This document shows positions 22,098-28,586 of a DNA stretch of 64,000 nt, piece after piece. The stretch spans positions 1 to 64,000 of the forward strand of contig JASANE010030290.1 of NCBI GenBank assembly GCA_030248225.1, in the 5' to 3' direction. The notes under the pieces were generated by a model. That model did no database searches, was not told the origin of the DNA, and saw only the letters and a program-made list of their open reading frames with translations. The position numbers and the translations under genes are program-made. Origin of the DNA: Trileptium ribeirensis. Lineage: Eukaryota; Nematoda; Enoplea; Enoplida; Thoracostomopsidae. How positions within the stretch are numbered: position 1 is the stretch's first letter; every line of letters starts with the position of its first letter.

Positions 22098-22101
22098 CAA
22101 T

Positions 22102-22703
22102 TGTAATGCATAACGCATATTTGTGTATTGCAAATCAACAGCAGTTCTAGCCAGTTCGTAAGTCCGATATAAGCAGAACGTTGGTCTACTTATGAATTCA
22201 GTTCATTTCAGCTTCAGTTCAGCTTTATTTTCACGGTTTTATGCGGTACGGTTCTTACAACTCGTATAGAGTGGTGTGTTTATATTAACTTCTTATCGGC
22301 GTCAGGTTTGCGTCACTCGGCACTTGGCTTTACCGCAGCTCAACAGCAATCGCTGGAGCCAACAGCATAACGCAACAACCACACCGAGAGCAATGGCATG
22401 GTGAAGTCGGGCTTAAACGGTAAGGCTTGAACTAATCGGCTCATACAACATTACTGACGTGCCATCAACCATCGCTGCCAACCGAGGACGTCAGCCAACT
22501 GAAGATGTGATTATACGAACAATAACTAAAGGTCGATTAGTTATCAAACACGGTTTACTTGACGACATGACCAAGAAGGTCAAGGTAACAATCAACGAAA
22601 ACCAAAAGAGCACGGTTGGATTGAAGGAGATAAGTAATTCGAAAACCAGAACAGTGATACTAATAAAACACTGAACAATAAATTAATTGGTAAATTAATT
22701 ACA
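22102..22703 (+). repeat. 5' LTR of the gypsy element
   Basis: 602 bp, TGTAATGC...AATTACA. It matches 27,445-28,324 closely over its whole length apart from the SINE in the latter. Differences such as TTATCGG/TTGTCGG and GACGTGCC/GACGCGCC give a low divergence by eye. Confidence 0.95.
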
Positions 22704-22704
22704 A

Positions 22705-22720
22705 TGATGAACCGGACAAG
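22705..22720 (+). other. Possible primer-binding site, degenerate tRNA-Trp type
   Basis: One base after the LTR, TGATGAACCGGACAAG matches the complement of an animal tRNA-Trp 3' end (TGGTGACCCCGACGTG, recalled) at 11 of 16 positions. CsRn1-group elements are known to use tRNA-Trp, so the match is suggestive, but the site is decayed. Confidence 0.35.
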
Positions 22721-23489
22721 GCCACGCAACACTTCTGGACTTCGTGTTTTCCCATATTTCTTGCCGTGTCCGTCATGGTGTTCAATGTTCCGTTTTGACA
22801 TGCGGACACTCCTCGTGTAACGGGTCTCGTACTGTTCACGTCAGTCCTTCCGGTCACATAGTCCGATCGTGTCAAACGCAAACGTGGCGCATTCGACGGT
22901 TCTATTTCAATTCGCCTTCGATTATCAATTTTCGGACGTCACGGCGTTAACAATAGTCAGGTCACGACGTTACGGGTCCTACTACTAATCGGGTTTATCG
23001 AACCGAATCCCGGGCCAGTAAACTTTTCGCACCAAACAAAGGACACATCCGGTATGATCAGGGTCCTGAATGCCAGCGACAATACGTTTGTAATGCCCAT
23101 AACGAAAGACGATATGATGACGGTGTTGACATCTTTGGCCCAGATATTCTTCAATTGGCGTTCAATCAGGTTTCAATGGGCCAAATACAAGCTTCGGCCC
23201 GTTCAAGTGTGAGTAATCAACCGGTGTTGAACCAATCCACGATGTCGGGTTGTGCAATCCAATTCCATCAATTGCCGCCGTTTAACCCAAAGACTCCGTA
23301 ATCGTAGTTCAATTAAATCGAACAAGTACTCGGTGACATAGATGATAACTCAAAAAAGCGCAACATCGTACGTGTTATCGACAACGCAATGGTACATGAA
23401 TCGGTTGTAGGCCGTCTTCGTACACCGATTTCAAACAAACTCTTATTCAATATTACGCTGACAGTGATAATCGACGGCTTCGCAAACTG

Positions 23490-24040
23490 TTGGAGGAAAA
23501 AGACCTCAAAGGTCGCAAACCATCAAGTGCCCTACGTGAACTTGCTGATTTGGCGCCGAATAGTCCCGACCTCGTTCGTCTTCGTTTTTTGGAAATTCTG
23601 CCGGAGCGAATTCGCCTTACACTTGTGTCTATGAACAATCTTTCTCTTGAACAGTTACCGCGTATTGCCGACACCATACTCGGGATGGCCGATCCAATTA
23701 TGGTGAATCAAATCACTCATATCCCTCCAGTCAGCACACCCATGGTCGATCCTTGACAATCATCAATCGAAAAGCAAACCGCTGAACTTACTAACGCAGT
23801 TCGCCAACTTGCAAATGCGAACAATTTAAACAATCGGCGGTCAAGAAGTCGCTCGCGCAATGTCGATCGCCCCAATCAACGTACATTCAGCCAATCGCAA
23901 TCACGATCACAGTCAAACCGTCGAACAAAAATGGTTTGTTGGTATCATACGAAATTTGGTAGTCAAGCAAGACGTTGTCCTGATACGCATTATTGCTCGT
24001 TTAATGAACAGCCGGACAATAATTCGGGAAACGAGTAAAC
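23490..24040 (+). pseudogene. gag remnant with CHCC zinc knuckle
   Basis: One frame, interrupted by a TGA at 23,754-23,756. The first part has the capsid-like segment (ELADLAPNSPDLVRLRFLEI then LPERIRLTLVSMN) seen in CsRn1-type Gag. After the stop come an Arg/Ser-rich stretch and, from 23,937, CWYHTKFGSQARRC then PDTHYC, the C-x2-H-x9-C-x5-C nucleic-acid-binding knuckle. Gag packages the RNA; this copy is broken, and the N-terminal part upstream of 23,490 is degraded. Confidence 0.8.
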
Positions 24041-24053
24041 CCCACCGCACGCT

Positions 24054-24728
24054 ATGCCTGCGTTTCAGTCAATGCTGTATTTATCAATGCATCACCTGTT
24101 GATCGTTTCATCGCTTATAGCGGAAGTGCATGGTCGTTTCTTCGTCCCACCGATGTACTCAACGTCGTACCCCTCCGCAGTCAAACCATTGATGCGTCTG
24201 CAGCTAACGGTACCCCTGTCAACATACATGGAACGTATCAACTCTCTTTTAAGCTGGAACAATTTCCAAGAACATTTCAATGGAATTTTTTTAATTGCTG
24301 ATGTTGCTCATCCGATCCTGGGTTGTGATTTCCTGTGTTATCATGCATTTGCGGTCGACTGTGTAAATAATCGACTAATCCAGGTCAAGACACAATTCTT
24401 CTCAGCCGTTTACAGTGCAACGACAAAACAGTCGCAGTGTACAAAGCACAGTTATCCAGTAGTTATACAGGATTGGTCCATGCGGATTCAGCAACTTTTT
24501 GCCGACTTCCCGAACACCTTCAAGCCAGTCGATGCATTCTCCCCAGTGCGCCATAGCATTCAACATCAAATTGTTACAACCGGTCCGCCTTGCTACGAAC
24601 GTCCACGCCGTTTAGTTGGATCAAAGCTTGCTGGCGCAAAGCGAGTGTTCTCTGAATGGGAAGAAACGGGCATCGTCTATCGCGGTGAATCGCCTTATGC
24701 ATCTCCACTTCATATGGTCTCCAAGTAG
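24054..24728 (+). pseudogene. Protease and start of reverse transcriptase, frameshifted
   Basis: The retroviral-type aspartic protease core lies at about 24,095-24,290 in the frame of base 24,116, where the expected D-S/T-G reads YSG (TAT AGC GGA, 24,116-24,124). It then shifts into the frame open to 24,728, which carries ILGCDFLCYHAFAVDC (protease C-terminal ILG.DFL) and an RT N-terminal region (HQIVTTGPPCYERPRRL, then ESPYASPLHMVSK before a stop). The Asp loss and the frameshift both disable the protease. Confidence 0.75.
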
Positions 24729-24739
24729 GATTCTTTTAC

Positions 24740-25381
24740 TCCATGACGTCCAACAGGTGACTATCGTAAACTGAATAGTCAAACAATAGCTGACAGATAT
24801 CCGATGCCAAATCTTGCTGATTTAACTAGCGATCTTCATGGGACGACTATATTTTCGAAGTTAGACCTCGTGTGTACTTATACCCAAATCCCCGTGTTGC
24901 TAAAGCGGATCAGCCAAAGACCACTACAACAACTCCGTTTGGACTATTTCTGTTTCGTCAAATGTTCTTCGGATTTCGTAATGCCGCGCAAACATTTCAA
25001 CGTCTTATGGACTGTGTCGTCGCGGAATGTCCGTTTGTGAAGGTTTACCTTGATGATATTCTGGTAGCAAGTGCCAACGTCGACGAACATTTCAATCATC
25101 TCCGTATAGTAATGCAATGCCTCGACATGCACGGTCTTCGCCTTCGTCCGGATAACCGCGTACTATGCAGCACAAAGGTAAACTTTGTTGGCGTAGAGGT
25201 CGATAGTAATGGCGTTCGCCCAATTCCAGCAAAGGTTCAAGCAATCAACGAGTTTTCGCCACTGTACATTGTCAACGGACTCCGTCGTTTTCTCGGCATG
25301 GCCGGATTGTATCATCGCTTCGTCCCGAACTTCTCTGGGAGAGCTGCACCGTTAACGGATATGATCCGTGGCAAAGCGTGA
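24740..25381 (+). pseudogene. Reverse transcriptase domain, frameshifted
   Basis: Palm and fingers motifs are split between two frames: DYRKLN, YPMPNLADL and FSKLDL in one (to about 24,890), then TTPFGLFLFRQMFFGFRNAA, TFQRLMD and the catalytic YLDD (25,046-25,057) in the other. RFLGMAGLYHRFVPNFS marks the connection after RT. Motif order and wording fit Ty3/gypsy RT of the CsRn1/Kabuki type. A stop at the end of this frame separates it from RNase H. Confidence 0.88.
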
Positions 25382-25932
25382 AAGGAAATTTCAATTTAGA
25401 CTGGTCGACATCCACGGATACCGCGTTCAACAACTTAAAGGCCGCTCTGGCTAATGCAGTTACGTTGGCGTTTCCGGATCCAAACGCCAAGCTTTCCTTC
25501 ATCATCGATGCCTCCGGCAATGCAGTTGGGGCGGCGCTTCACGAAATCAGAGACAATGTTTGCCAACCAATCGCGTTTTATTCTGAAAAGCTCACTCCAC
25601 TTGAGTCAAGAAAGTCTGCTTTTGACAGAGAGCTACTTGCGATATACAAAGCGCTCAAACATTTTTTGTGGCTCCTTGGGTCGGAATTTACCATTCGGAC
25701 GGATCACAAACCACTCGTCCGCACGATGGCAATGGCAAATCCATCACCCCATCAGTGTCGATGGCTTTCTTTCATCTCGGAGTTTGGTTGTTCAATCGAG
25801 CATGTTCCCGGTACTGAGAATGTCGTTGCCGATGCTATTTCGCGACCAGTATACTCTATTGCTGTCGCGTTCGATACCCATCTTGCTGACGCACAAGCAG
25901 CTGATGTTGATCTCATGCATTTTGTGAAGTAA
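25378..25932 (+). pseudogene. RNase H domain
   Basis: Open for 184 codons. LSFIIDASGNAVGAALHE gives the first catalytic Asp region, SAFDRELLAIYKALKHF the Glu helix, and FTIRTDHKPLVR the next Asp. WLSFISEFGCSIEHVPGTEN and VVADAISR close the domain. This is the tethered RNase H of Ty3/gypsy pol, with no break inside the domain. Confidence 0.9.
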
Positions 25933-25938
25933 ACTGAT

Positions 25939-26526
25939 TTGCTAATCAAACGGTATATGATCGAAGGAAAGACTGTATATCGCGATGCCTCTACTGCGCA
26001 GCTTCGTCCGTACGTGCCCATGTCAATGCGGTTCAATATCTTCAAGTCAATCCATAATCTCGCGCATCTTGGTCCACGTGCAACTCTCAGCAGCATCTCA
26101 AGTAGCTACATCTCGCCAAACATAAATCGTGACGTTAAGACATGGTGCCGACAGTGTATCGAACGCCAGCGTAGCAATGCGGTACGACACACAAAGACTA
26201 CAATCGGCTCCATCCCAACAACTGGTCGTTTTCACACGGTGCACATTGACATCGCTGGTCCGTTGCCCCCTTCCAACGACAAGTGTTATCTGGTAACCGT
26301 AATTGATCGTTTCACCCGGTGGCCCGAAACAATTCCCATCTCCGACATCACTACCGAACCCGTGGCGGGTGCGCTCATCTCAGTTTGGACAAGTCGATTC
26401 GGCGTTCCGCGAGTGCTTATATTCGATCACGGTACGCAGTTCGAATCTGCGATATGGTTAGCACTCATGGAACAACTAGGAATTGAACGGCGTCGAACAA
26501 CAGCCTATCGCCCAGCATGCAGTTGA
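25939..26526 (+). pseudogene. Integrase zinc-binding and catalytic core, truncated by frameshift
   Basis: HHCC zinc module (NLAHLGPRATLSSI... WCRQCIERQRSN), then the DDE core: first Asp in FHTVHIDIAGPLPPS, the YLVTVIDRFTRWPE strand, and the second Asp in IFDHGTQFESAIW. The frame ends (PACS stop) just before the catalytic Glu, which is found in another frame (HAVEQW, about 26,515-26,532). The rest of the core continues in shifted frames to about 26,820. Confidence 0.88.
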
Positions 26527-26821
26527 ACAGTGGAGCGTTATATCGTACGCTCAAAAACGGATTGCGCGCTCACTGTTCCTCCGCTACATAGACAACTTCA
26601 CTTCCGCTTGTTCTGCTTGGAATTCGCACGAGCCTCAACGACAAAGGTTTCGCTCCCTGCCAAATGGTGTTTGGTTCAAGTATTGATTTGCCGCACCATT
26701 ATTTCACACCAACATCAACTAAACAATTAGCATCGGAAGACTACTTCAAAGCACGACTTTTTCCGGAATACGTAGTCTTAATGCTCCTGAGCGTCACCAC
26801 GCCAAATAGTTTTACGTACCG

Positions 26822-27430
26822 ACGTCCCTCGACAACGCCAAGCAGAAATGGATACGTGATGACTCTGTAAAGAACACTCTTCAACCACGTTATCATGGTC
26901 CGTACGAAGTACTAGATCGCGATGACAAAACGGTTGTCGTCAAACTACACAACGGTGATGATCGAGTAAGCATCAACCGCGTTAAACCAGCCTTTTTCAA
27001 CGACCAAGATGTCACGTCCACATCATCTGGGTCCTCTGCATCTTCTAATGACGATAATCATAGTCAAAGCGACAGTACTATTTGTACTAATAAACAGTTC
27101 AAAGAAAGCACAGTAGTTCTGGCAAAGATGCGAAATTGGCCATGTTGGCCTGCGCTTATTATCTCGTCAGCCAATACTGAACTATCGTCTGTGAAACAGC
27201 CAAGCCATTCAATTGCGGTGAAATTCTTTGGTACAGATCGCCTGGCTTTCGTAGCGCTTACGTCGATACGTCATTTTGAAACTACTGCGTTAATAAAGCG
27301 ATGCGACTTACGGCGTGCGTTCGAGCTAGCATCTTGTCACCTGAACCCTCAACTAGTTCCTGCCACCACTGATACTAAGAAAGTTCGTTTTGCACCGCAG
27401 GCTCTTGTGCTCGGTCGGCGCTCCGCTTAA
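26822..27430 (+). CDS. Integrase C-terminus: GPY/F module followed by a PWWP domain
   Basis: An uninterrupted frame of 202 codons to the TAA at 27,428-27,430, 14 bases before the 3' LTR. It opens with the typical gypsy integrase end: AKQKWIRDDSVKNTLQPRYH, then GPYEVLDRDDKTVVVKLHNG and RVSINRVKPA (GPY/F). A Ser/Asp-rich linker of about 40 residues follows. From about 27,113 a PWWP fold pattern is clear: VVLAKMRNWPCWPALI (motif P-C-W-P), then IAVKFFGTDRLAFVALTSIR HFE, then an Arg/Ala-rich helix. PWWP domains bind DNA and methylated histone tails, best known for H3K36me2/3. Chromoviral gypsy elements carry a chromodomain here. I infer a targeting role. Confidence 0.82.
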   Translation, partial: TSLDNAKQKWIRDDSVKNTLQPRYHGPYEVLDRDDKTVVVKLHNGDDRVSINRVKPAFFNDQDVTSTSSGSSASSNDDNHSQSDSTICTNKQFKESTVVLAKMRNWPCWPALIISSANTELSSVKQPSHSIAVKFFGTDRLAFVALTSIRHFETTALIKRCDLRRAFELASCHLNPQLVPATTDTKKVRFAPQALVLGRRSA

Positions 27431-27444
27431 AACGACGGGGGTTC
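27429..27444 (+). other. Polypurine-tract-like run before 3' LTR
   Basis: AAAACGACGGGGGTTC region directly before TGTAATG. It is mostly purine and correctly placed for plus-strand priming, but interrupted by C residues. Confidence 0.4.
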
Positions 27445-28324
27445 TGTAATGCATAACGCTTATTTGCGTATGCAAACCAACAGCAGTTCTAGCCGGTTCG
27501 TAAACCCGATATACGCAGAACGTTGGTCTACTTATGAATTCATTTCATTTCAGCTTCAGTTCAGCTTTATGTTCACGGTTTTATGCGGTACGGTTCTTAC
27601 AACTCGTATAGAGTGGTGTGTTTATATTAACTTCTTGTCGGCGTCAGGTTTGCGTCACTCGGCACTTGGCTTTACCGCAGCTCAACAGCAATCGCTGGAG
27701 CCAACAGCATAACGCAACAACCACACCGAGAGCAATGGCATGGTGAAGTCGGGCTTAAACGGTAAGGCTTGAGCTAATCGGCTCATACAACATTACTGAC
27801 GCGCCATCAACCATCGCTGACAAGTGGCCGCGTGGCCGAGTGGTTAGAGCGCCTGCTTCAATCGTGAAGTCAGGAGTTCGAATCCACTGGTCGCGCTAAT
27901 CTCCTTGGGCAAGGGACTCAGCCACAATTGCTTCGCAGTACCTATGCGTTAAACAGGTACTAGACTTTGGTCTAGCCGGATAAGATGATGGGTGGTGTAA
28001 TGGGCAATCATCATGGCCAATCTACAGACAATGCTTCGGCACAATAACCCGGATTGTCACCTAGTGCCAATTGCATGTTTATCCGACATTTATCGCTGCC
28101 AACCGAGGACGTCAGCCAACTGAAGATGTGATTATACGAACATTAACTAAAGGTCGATTAGTTATCAAACACTGTTTACTTGATGACATGACCAAGAAGG
28201 TCAAGGTAACAATCAACGAAAGCCAAAAGAGCACGGTTTCATTGAAGGAGATAAGTAATTGGTAAAGCAGAACAGTGATACTGATAATACAGTGAACAAT
28301 AAATTAATCGGTAAATTAATTACA
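27445..28324 (+). repeat. 3' LTR of the gypsy element, interrupted by a SINE
   Basis: Starts TGTAATGC and ends AATTACA. It is the same as the 5' LTR except for about 275 extra bases at about 27,820-28,092. Confidence 0.95.
27820..28092 (+). mobile_element. tRNA-derived SINE inside the 3' LTR
   Basis: About 270 bp absent from the 5' LTR, flanked by copies of ATCGCTG (left about 27,812, right about 28,093). The head carries RNA polymerase III boxes: box A TGGCCGAGTGG and box B GTTCGAATCC. The tRNA-like fold is degenerate (acceptor and T stems do not pair well), so it is not a tRNA gene. The body contains CCTTGGGCAAGGGACTCAGC, which resembles the conserved central block shared by many invertebrate and fish SINEs. 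The insertion postdates the gypsy element. Confidence 0.85.
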
Positions 28325-28586
28325 CAATGATGCAGAATGTATAATGAATACGTACAACATTGTTGCACATGTGATACAAAATATTGCATCACCATAACAG
28401 GTATTCGCATCATACATGCAATATTTCATACGTATACGAAACGATGCCTGTGCCTATATCATACGAAATCAATGGTATACATTGTCTAATAGTACGTTAT
28501 GCATAAACGTGTAATGTTGCTTAAGGCAATCGTCAAATACGACTTCAGCTCGAAAAACTATCAAGGAGCCTTCGGTATTCTAAAAA

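Follow-up and report, generated by a model that had tools for sequence, protein, structure and literature searches.

Does a retrotransposon integrase that runs into a PWWP domain represent a fusion shared by a family of elements, and what could such a domain do there? The question arose from a 64,000-nucleotide stretch of Trileptium ribeirensis DNA (contig JASANE010030290.1, forward strand; hereafter the window). A first-pass annotation had reported in it an open frame of 202 codons (26822-27430) that links the GPY/F module of an integrase to a PWWP-like block. The frame exists and comprises 206 codons (26810-27430). It holds RYHGPYEVLD, SINRVKPA, a Ser/Asp-rich linker and VVLAKMRNWPCWPALI...VKFFGTDRLAF. 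The stop of pol ends at 27430 and the 3' LTR begins at 27445, so that the reported distance of 14 bases is correct. The PF00855 search, set beforehand as the test of the domain call, identified a PWWP at residues 97-155 with E 3.2e-10 (40.8 bits, cut-off 25.6). The best structural matches of this segment were likewise PWWPs, and in a single-sequence search against solved structures the LEDGF PWWP was the best match (E 4.3e-4).

The frame belongs to a decayed Ty3/Gypsy element of 6.2 kb (22102-28324), recognised by its LTRs, a 4-bp target-site duplication (CAAT) and the order reverse transcriptase, RNase H, integrase (Table 1). Between the two LTRs, 25 differences were counted over 601 aligned sites (K2P 0.043). 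Gag and pol kept their order and are broken into pieces over several frames; for the remainder of pol, the breaks that had been reported were confirmed with tblastn. The 279-bp insert in the 3' LTR carries ATCGCTG(A/C)CAA at both edges, an 11-base near-duplication. Its head is tRNA-like as judged by eye, and the insert looks like a SINE. The GCTCCGC...GGGGG motif was found by eye just before the 3' LTR of other copies, too. In the window it overlaps the end of pol, whereas in other copies it follows a third open reading frame (ORF3, described below); it could form a hairpin. Scanning the window for tRNAs and against Rfam gave nothing informative.

Table 1 Features of the Ty3/Gypsy element in the window
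Feature	Position	Strand	Basis
Target-site duplication CAAT, 5' copy	22098..22101	.	same 4 bases immediately outside both LTRs
5' LTR (TGTAAT...ATTACA)	22102..22703	+	aligned to 3' LTR
Degenerate primer binding site	22705..22717	+	by-eye comparison with TGGTGAACCCGACGTGAT of related copies
Broken gag	22916..24035	+	tblastn, using gag frames from related copies
2A-like peptide in gag (LRVLLLIGFIEPNPGP)	22949..23017	+	pattern scan
Broken pol (protease, RT, RNase H, integrase), several frames	23903..27430	+	tblastn, related pol frames
Reverse transcriptase piece	24830..25378	+	Pfam RVT_1 E 1.5e-11
RNase H piece	25210..25929	+	Pfam RT_RNaseH_2 E 8.1e-26
Integrase zinc-binding and catalytic core piece	25933..26523	+	Pfam Integrase_H2C2 1.6e-13, rve 1.7e-13
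Integrase GPY/F (SH3-like) module	26843..27001	+	Pfam SH3_11 below threshold (E 0.0017); conserved across the 22 C-termini aligned
Ser/Asp-rich linker, disordered in model	27002..27103	+	pLDDT <50 at residues 61-90; mostly fast evolving
PWWP domain and its C-terminal helix	27104..27349	+	
C-terminal tail motif KKVRF	27377..27391	+	alignment columns V188 and F190 are conserved
GCTCCGC...GGGGG motif and purine-rich stretch before 3' LTR	27421..27444	+	by eye
3' LTR, 279-bp insert at 27813-28091	27445..28324	+	LTR alignment
Target-site duplication CAAT, 3' copy	28325..28328	.	matches 5' copy

The T. ribeirensis genome (687,459,628 bases in 20,229 contigs) was searched with the 202-residue fused segment. 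At least 151 matches at E <= 0.001 were obtained, from the best 150 of 840 candidates scored. Among the matches listed, self excluded, identity ranged from 33 to 88%, the best value over the whole segment being 69%; one row stops short of residue 136 and is half of a split match. Intact relatives, which the first-pass annotation had left to such a search, are present: at least 30 matches, counted by eye, lie in frames of 1,100-1,214 codons with no internal stop. Twenty diverse copies (L031-L050), selected for long frames, were taken for further analysis. The C-termini of 19 of them (L033, a near copy, was omitted) were aligned with those of L005, L012 and the window. PF00855 was detected in all 22 at E <= 0.01, so that none of these 22 has the LTR straight after GPY/F, the arrangement that the first-pass annotation had equated with a one-off captured fragment. 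A chromodomain or Tudor domain misread as PWWP was rejected, as the 22 C-termini give PF00855 and none of the five Pfam families that they match is a chromodomain family.

Searches with the fused segment or with PF00855 are biased toward domain-bearing copies. With PF00855, at least 150 genome matches were obtained (best 150 of 777); those listed are all over the cut-off and may include host genes. Seven of eight inspected loci lie within a Gypsy pol. The eighth (L053, contig C8546) is a frame outside Gypsy in which a 2A-like peptide is followed by a PWWP (PF00855, E 2e-16) and then by a long region that has no clear Pfam match; it is possibly another mobile element bearing a PWWP. Our own PWWP profile found the domain in 58 of 58 loci, 38 of them obtained by matching PWWP and 20 picked from the same match list; in 53, GPY/F precedes it by 18-41 residues without a change of frame. 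As a less biased query, 750 residues of the L031 pol were used, in which PWWP covers residues 635-718. From the best 60 of 8,470 candidates 61 rows resulted, and 47 of these extend to residue 680 or further. Eight of the other 14 have a whole or partial PWWP in an adjacent separate match. For the last six (C12653, C14944, C10735, C7990, C9165 and C11487) no PWWP match was located among the matches listed; in two of them, with frames of more than 1,000 codons, the domain may be absent or lost.

Beyond the copies analysed so far, two protein searches (best 120 of 135 and best 120 of 795) yielded 226 distinct proteins. Our PWWP profile picks nine of them (P0001-P0006 and P0121-P0123) at E <= 6.3e-15, the next protein having E 2.3. 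These PWWP proteins top both search lists, taking the first six and the first nine places. None of the nine pols is more than 58% identical to a query, and they may not come from other hosts. In the organism-labelled proteins listed (insects, spiders, flatworms, nematodes, sea urchin) no PWWP was found. The 202-residue segment alone gave 551 protein candidates, none at E <= 0.001; full-length pols were probably outside the length range of that search. Viral contigs gave no useful match, and a viral structure library gave a single match at E <= 0.001 with 12% identity.

Trees with 121, 87 and 41 rows were calculated from the RT-integrase core, the sequences ending where GPY/F begins. The 87-row tree contained 27 PWWP rows and 60 others drawn from 172 usable ones; a further 45 were excluded for coverage. 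On the 121- and 87-row trees the PWWP rows group together with a single PWWP-less row, P0007, which stands beside P0006. On the 41-row tree, a branch with SH-aLRT 100 separates the 27 PWWP rows and P0007 from all others, and a grouping of the 27 without P0007 was rejected (p-AU 0.0006). The simplest history would be one gain of the PWWP and one loss, in P0007.

An assembly artefact or one-off capture, in which a host PWWP exon came to lie behind a decayed integrase, could be suspected from the decay of the window copy. Against it, the same fusion recurs in 19 genome groups and nine external proteins, in uninterrupted frames and within one clade. These observations refute this explanation, and its probability is practically negligible. 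The 19 groups were obtained at 80% identity from the set of 26 rows that was also used for the comparison of the domain below.

P0007 ends with GPY/F, a short linker and a KRRKRVTF tail, with no PWWP. Among 201 PWWP-less relatives in which 10-120 residues follow GPY/F, 147 have a GRx[VI] tail. Since P0007 and these relatives end in a similar tail, the PWWP lies between GPY/F and a C-terminal tail that is older than the fusion. Eight of the nine external proteins have kept a basic VxF tail after the PWWP, and P0004 has VTI. Some proteins combine a GILK/SILK-like linker motif with a KxVxF-like tail (L039, L048 and L050; P0163, P0177 and P0199), PWWP-less Schistosoma relatives included. Linker motif and tail resemble paired PP1-docking motifs. 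As a feature linked to the PWWP they were dropped, because the tail also ends PWWP-less relatives.

For the PWWP, dN/dS could be given for 13 of 15 pairs. It was 0.08-0.35 in 12 of the 13, four of these 12 with dS >1.4; the pair L005-L015 reached 1.22 from very few changes. The linker gave values of 0.59-1.13 in six pairs and of 0 to 0.31 in four. The ratios indicate that the PWWP domain is under purifying selection. The first-pass annotation had considered that the open frame may be chance in a decayed copy. This was rejected because of the selection on the domain, and other copies have uninterrupted frames. Another explanation regards the PWWP as a passenger that plays no part in insertion and is retained because it stabilises the protein or serves another step. 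The existence of P0007 without PWWP would fit, but purifying selection and conservation of the cage across deep divergence make it very improbable.

The methyl-lysine cage of the PSIP1 PWWP consists of M15, Y18, W21 and F44, according to the part of PMC3663649 available to us. Positions 106, W109 and F135 of the fused segment correspond to Y18, W21 and F44. In the 26 rows, near copies included, position 106 is aromatic in 26, W109 is kept in 26 and F135 in 25. At the first cage position, the T. ribeirensis copies vary between M, F, V, L and Y. Position 106 can be read in eight of the external proteins; five of these have an aromatic residue there, and P0005, P0006 and P0121 have M, Q and H. 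A WP motif is present in eight of nine, P0123 being without the WPA motif. The predicted cage is thus kept, less strictly in the external proteins. All 26 domains have a net positive charge. In a profile search of solved sequences, members of the LEDGF and HDGF family ranked best at E 1e-10 (LEDGF 1.1e-10), followed by NSD2 (2.5e-10) and DNMT3B (7.4e-10). The nearest solved relatives are thus the LEDGF/HDGF PWWPs, by a small margin only, because NSD2 and DNMT3B score close behind.

These properties suggest that the integrase PWWP is a built-in tether to H3K36-methylated nucleosomes, a reading from sequence to which we assign a probability of roughly 0.57. The integrase would first assemble on the cDNA ends. 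The PWWP would then dock on H3K36-methylated nucleosomes via cage and basic surface, and insertion would be biased toward H3K36-methylated, transcribed chromatin. A host tether such as LEDGF would not be needed. In support, the LEDGF PWWP binds H3K36me3, and reader swaps redirect HIV-1 (PMC8149907, in the part available). The interpretation of the first-pass annotation, that the element family carries its own PWWP to steer insertion, therefore holds for the fusion itself, which is family-wide in a Ty3/Gypsy lineage (22 of 22 C-termini, one clade) and LEDGF/HDGF-like by profile; the steering keeps the probability just given.

The main rival to the methyl-lysine tether is a DNA-binding role. The PWWP would be an architectural extension that grips target DNA, contacts other subunits of a multimer or retains the complex in the nucleus, with no reading of histone methylation. 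The net basic charge of all 26 domains fits this role, as does the non-aromatic residue at one cage position of three external proteins. Moreover, the isolated PSIP1 PWWP bound an H3K36me3 peptide very weakly (17 mM) and preferred DNA by far (150 uM), as reported in the available part of PMC3663649. A pure DNA binder would, however, not need the three cage positions that are kept in 25-26 of 26 rows. This argument is tempered by W21 and F44 being core residues as well (same part of PMC3663649). Taken together, we regard a purely DNA-binding role as rather unlikely.

PWWP domains differ in mark preference. The domain could recognise a different mark or a different histone, such as H3K36me2 of intergenic chromatin, H3K79me or H4K20me, with insertion outside gene bodies. 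The first cage position differs between families, and the PWWPs of NSD2 and DNMT3B nearly equal the score of LEDGF, which would be compatible with such a preference. The best solved relatives by profile are, however, the LEDGF/HDGF domains, which are H3K36me readers, and another mark appears improbable.

Besides the tether, the elements show two further features. A 2A-like peptide (..GDVELNPGP) was detected in the gag region of 18 of the 20 loci (L031-L034 and L037-L050) and in the window; two such peptides occur in each of L039, L041 and L050. For 2A in retrotransposons, the reference found concerns non-LTR elements, as far as its title tells. A third open reading frame or its remains was found with tblastn downstream of pol in nine of the 20 loci (L037, L038, L040, L042-L046 and L049), and neither in the other 11 nor in the element of the window. 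Seven of these ORF3 frames are intact, with 320-364 residues. They begin with a NADAR domain (PF08719, best E 1.5e-27), and an SGNH/GDSL hydrolase fold comes after it; the two parts were recognised by Pfam at five loci and by fold at one. This fold is near platelet-activating factor acetylhydrolase and the esterase of the retrotransposon ZfL2-1. The D-S, N and H positions of the catalytic blocks are invariant in eight aligned rows. The nine ORF3 loci fall within one tree group of 15 rows (SH-aLRT 95) that also includes external rows, whose downstream DNA was unseen. Separately, degenerate NADAR frames lie at 69-1173 of the window, with 24-31% identity to the ORF3 of the PWWP elements.

A fuller account can be proposed tentatively, with chances a little below even. 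An HDGF/LEDGF-type PWWP would have been captured once, and many families would use it as an H3K36-methylation tether into active gene bodies. Gag would undergo 2A skipping, and in one branch the NADAR-SGNH protein may act on ADP-ribose-type or ester marks of nucleic acid or protein, belonging to host or element.

Regarding known lineages, the window element is a decayed member of a diverse Ty3/Gypsy clade that resembles CsRn1. A 4-bp target duplication was read in three of seven elements (CAAT in the window, AACT in L031 and CTCT in L037, the latter two by eye); in L032, L033, L047 and L048 none was found by eye. Of 18 loci scanned, 14 have in their 5' part the stretch TGGTGAACC, presumably a match to the tRNA-Trp primer site. 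The Gag CHCC motif CX2HX9CX3C is exact in 10 of 18 gag frames and was not found in the broken gag of the window. CsRn1 and PwRn1 share with the PWWP elements the 4-bp duplication and GPY/F, and presumably also a TGGTGAACCCGACGTGAT-like primer site and the CHCC Gag (10/18). Within the CsRn1 clade, the available part of PMC2582038 describes PwRn1 and AgCR elements with neither chromodomain nor ENV-like protein. Compared with them, the PWWP elements add the PWWP, 2A-like Gag peptides and partly a third open reading frame.

The first-pass annotation knew of no description of an integrase-PWWP fusion in retrotransposons. In agreement with this, none was found among the open-library titles and abstract starts listed. 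The integrase-borne readers found in the literature are chromodomains and, recently, a Tudor domain. If the tether is true, these elements would provide a naturally occurring, inherited counterpart of the lentiviral LEDGF tether and of the engineered reader fusions tried for gene-therapy vectors, and a retrotransposon would be aimed at the chromatin of active genes instead of heterochromatin. Since one genome contains many such families, the effect of the reader on where an element lands and survives could be followed directly in insertion maps.

Like the window element, chromoviruses carry a reader of the chromo/Tudor/PWWP superfamily C-terminally in pol; theirs is a chromodomain, whereas that of the window element is a PWWP. 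The chromodomain reads H3K9me, in contrast to the PWWP of these elements, which presumably reads H3K36me. Gypsy elements of Ectocarpus are likewise integrase-reader fusions outside chromoviruses. Their integrases end in Tudor domains and chromodomains, the Tudor domain being called the first to the authors' knowledge, and the available part of that article has no occurrence of PWWP (PMC12477816). NADAR is located N-terminally in the Ectocarpus Gypsy pol (same part of PMC12477816), whereas in the present elements it is encoded in a separate ORF3 together with an SGNH esterase. With lentiviral integrase and LEDGF/p75, the elements have a LEDGF/HDGF-like PWWP in common, for which a tether role would have to be assumed in the retrotransposon. 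In the lentiviral system this domain is located on the host protein LEDGF/p75, whereas the retrotransposon encodes it within its own pol.
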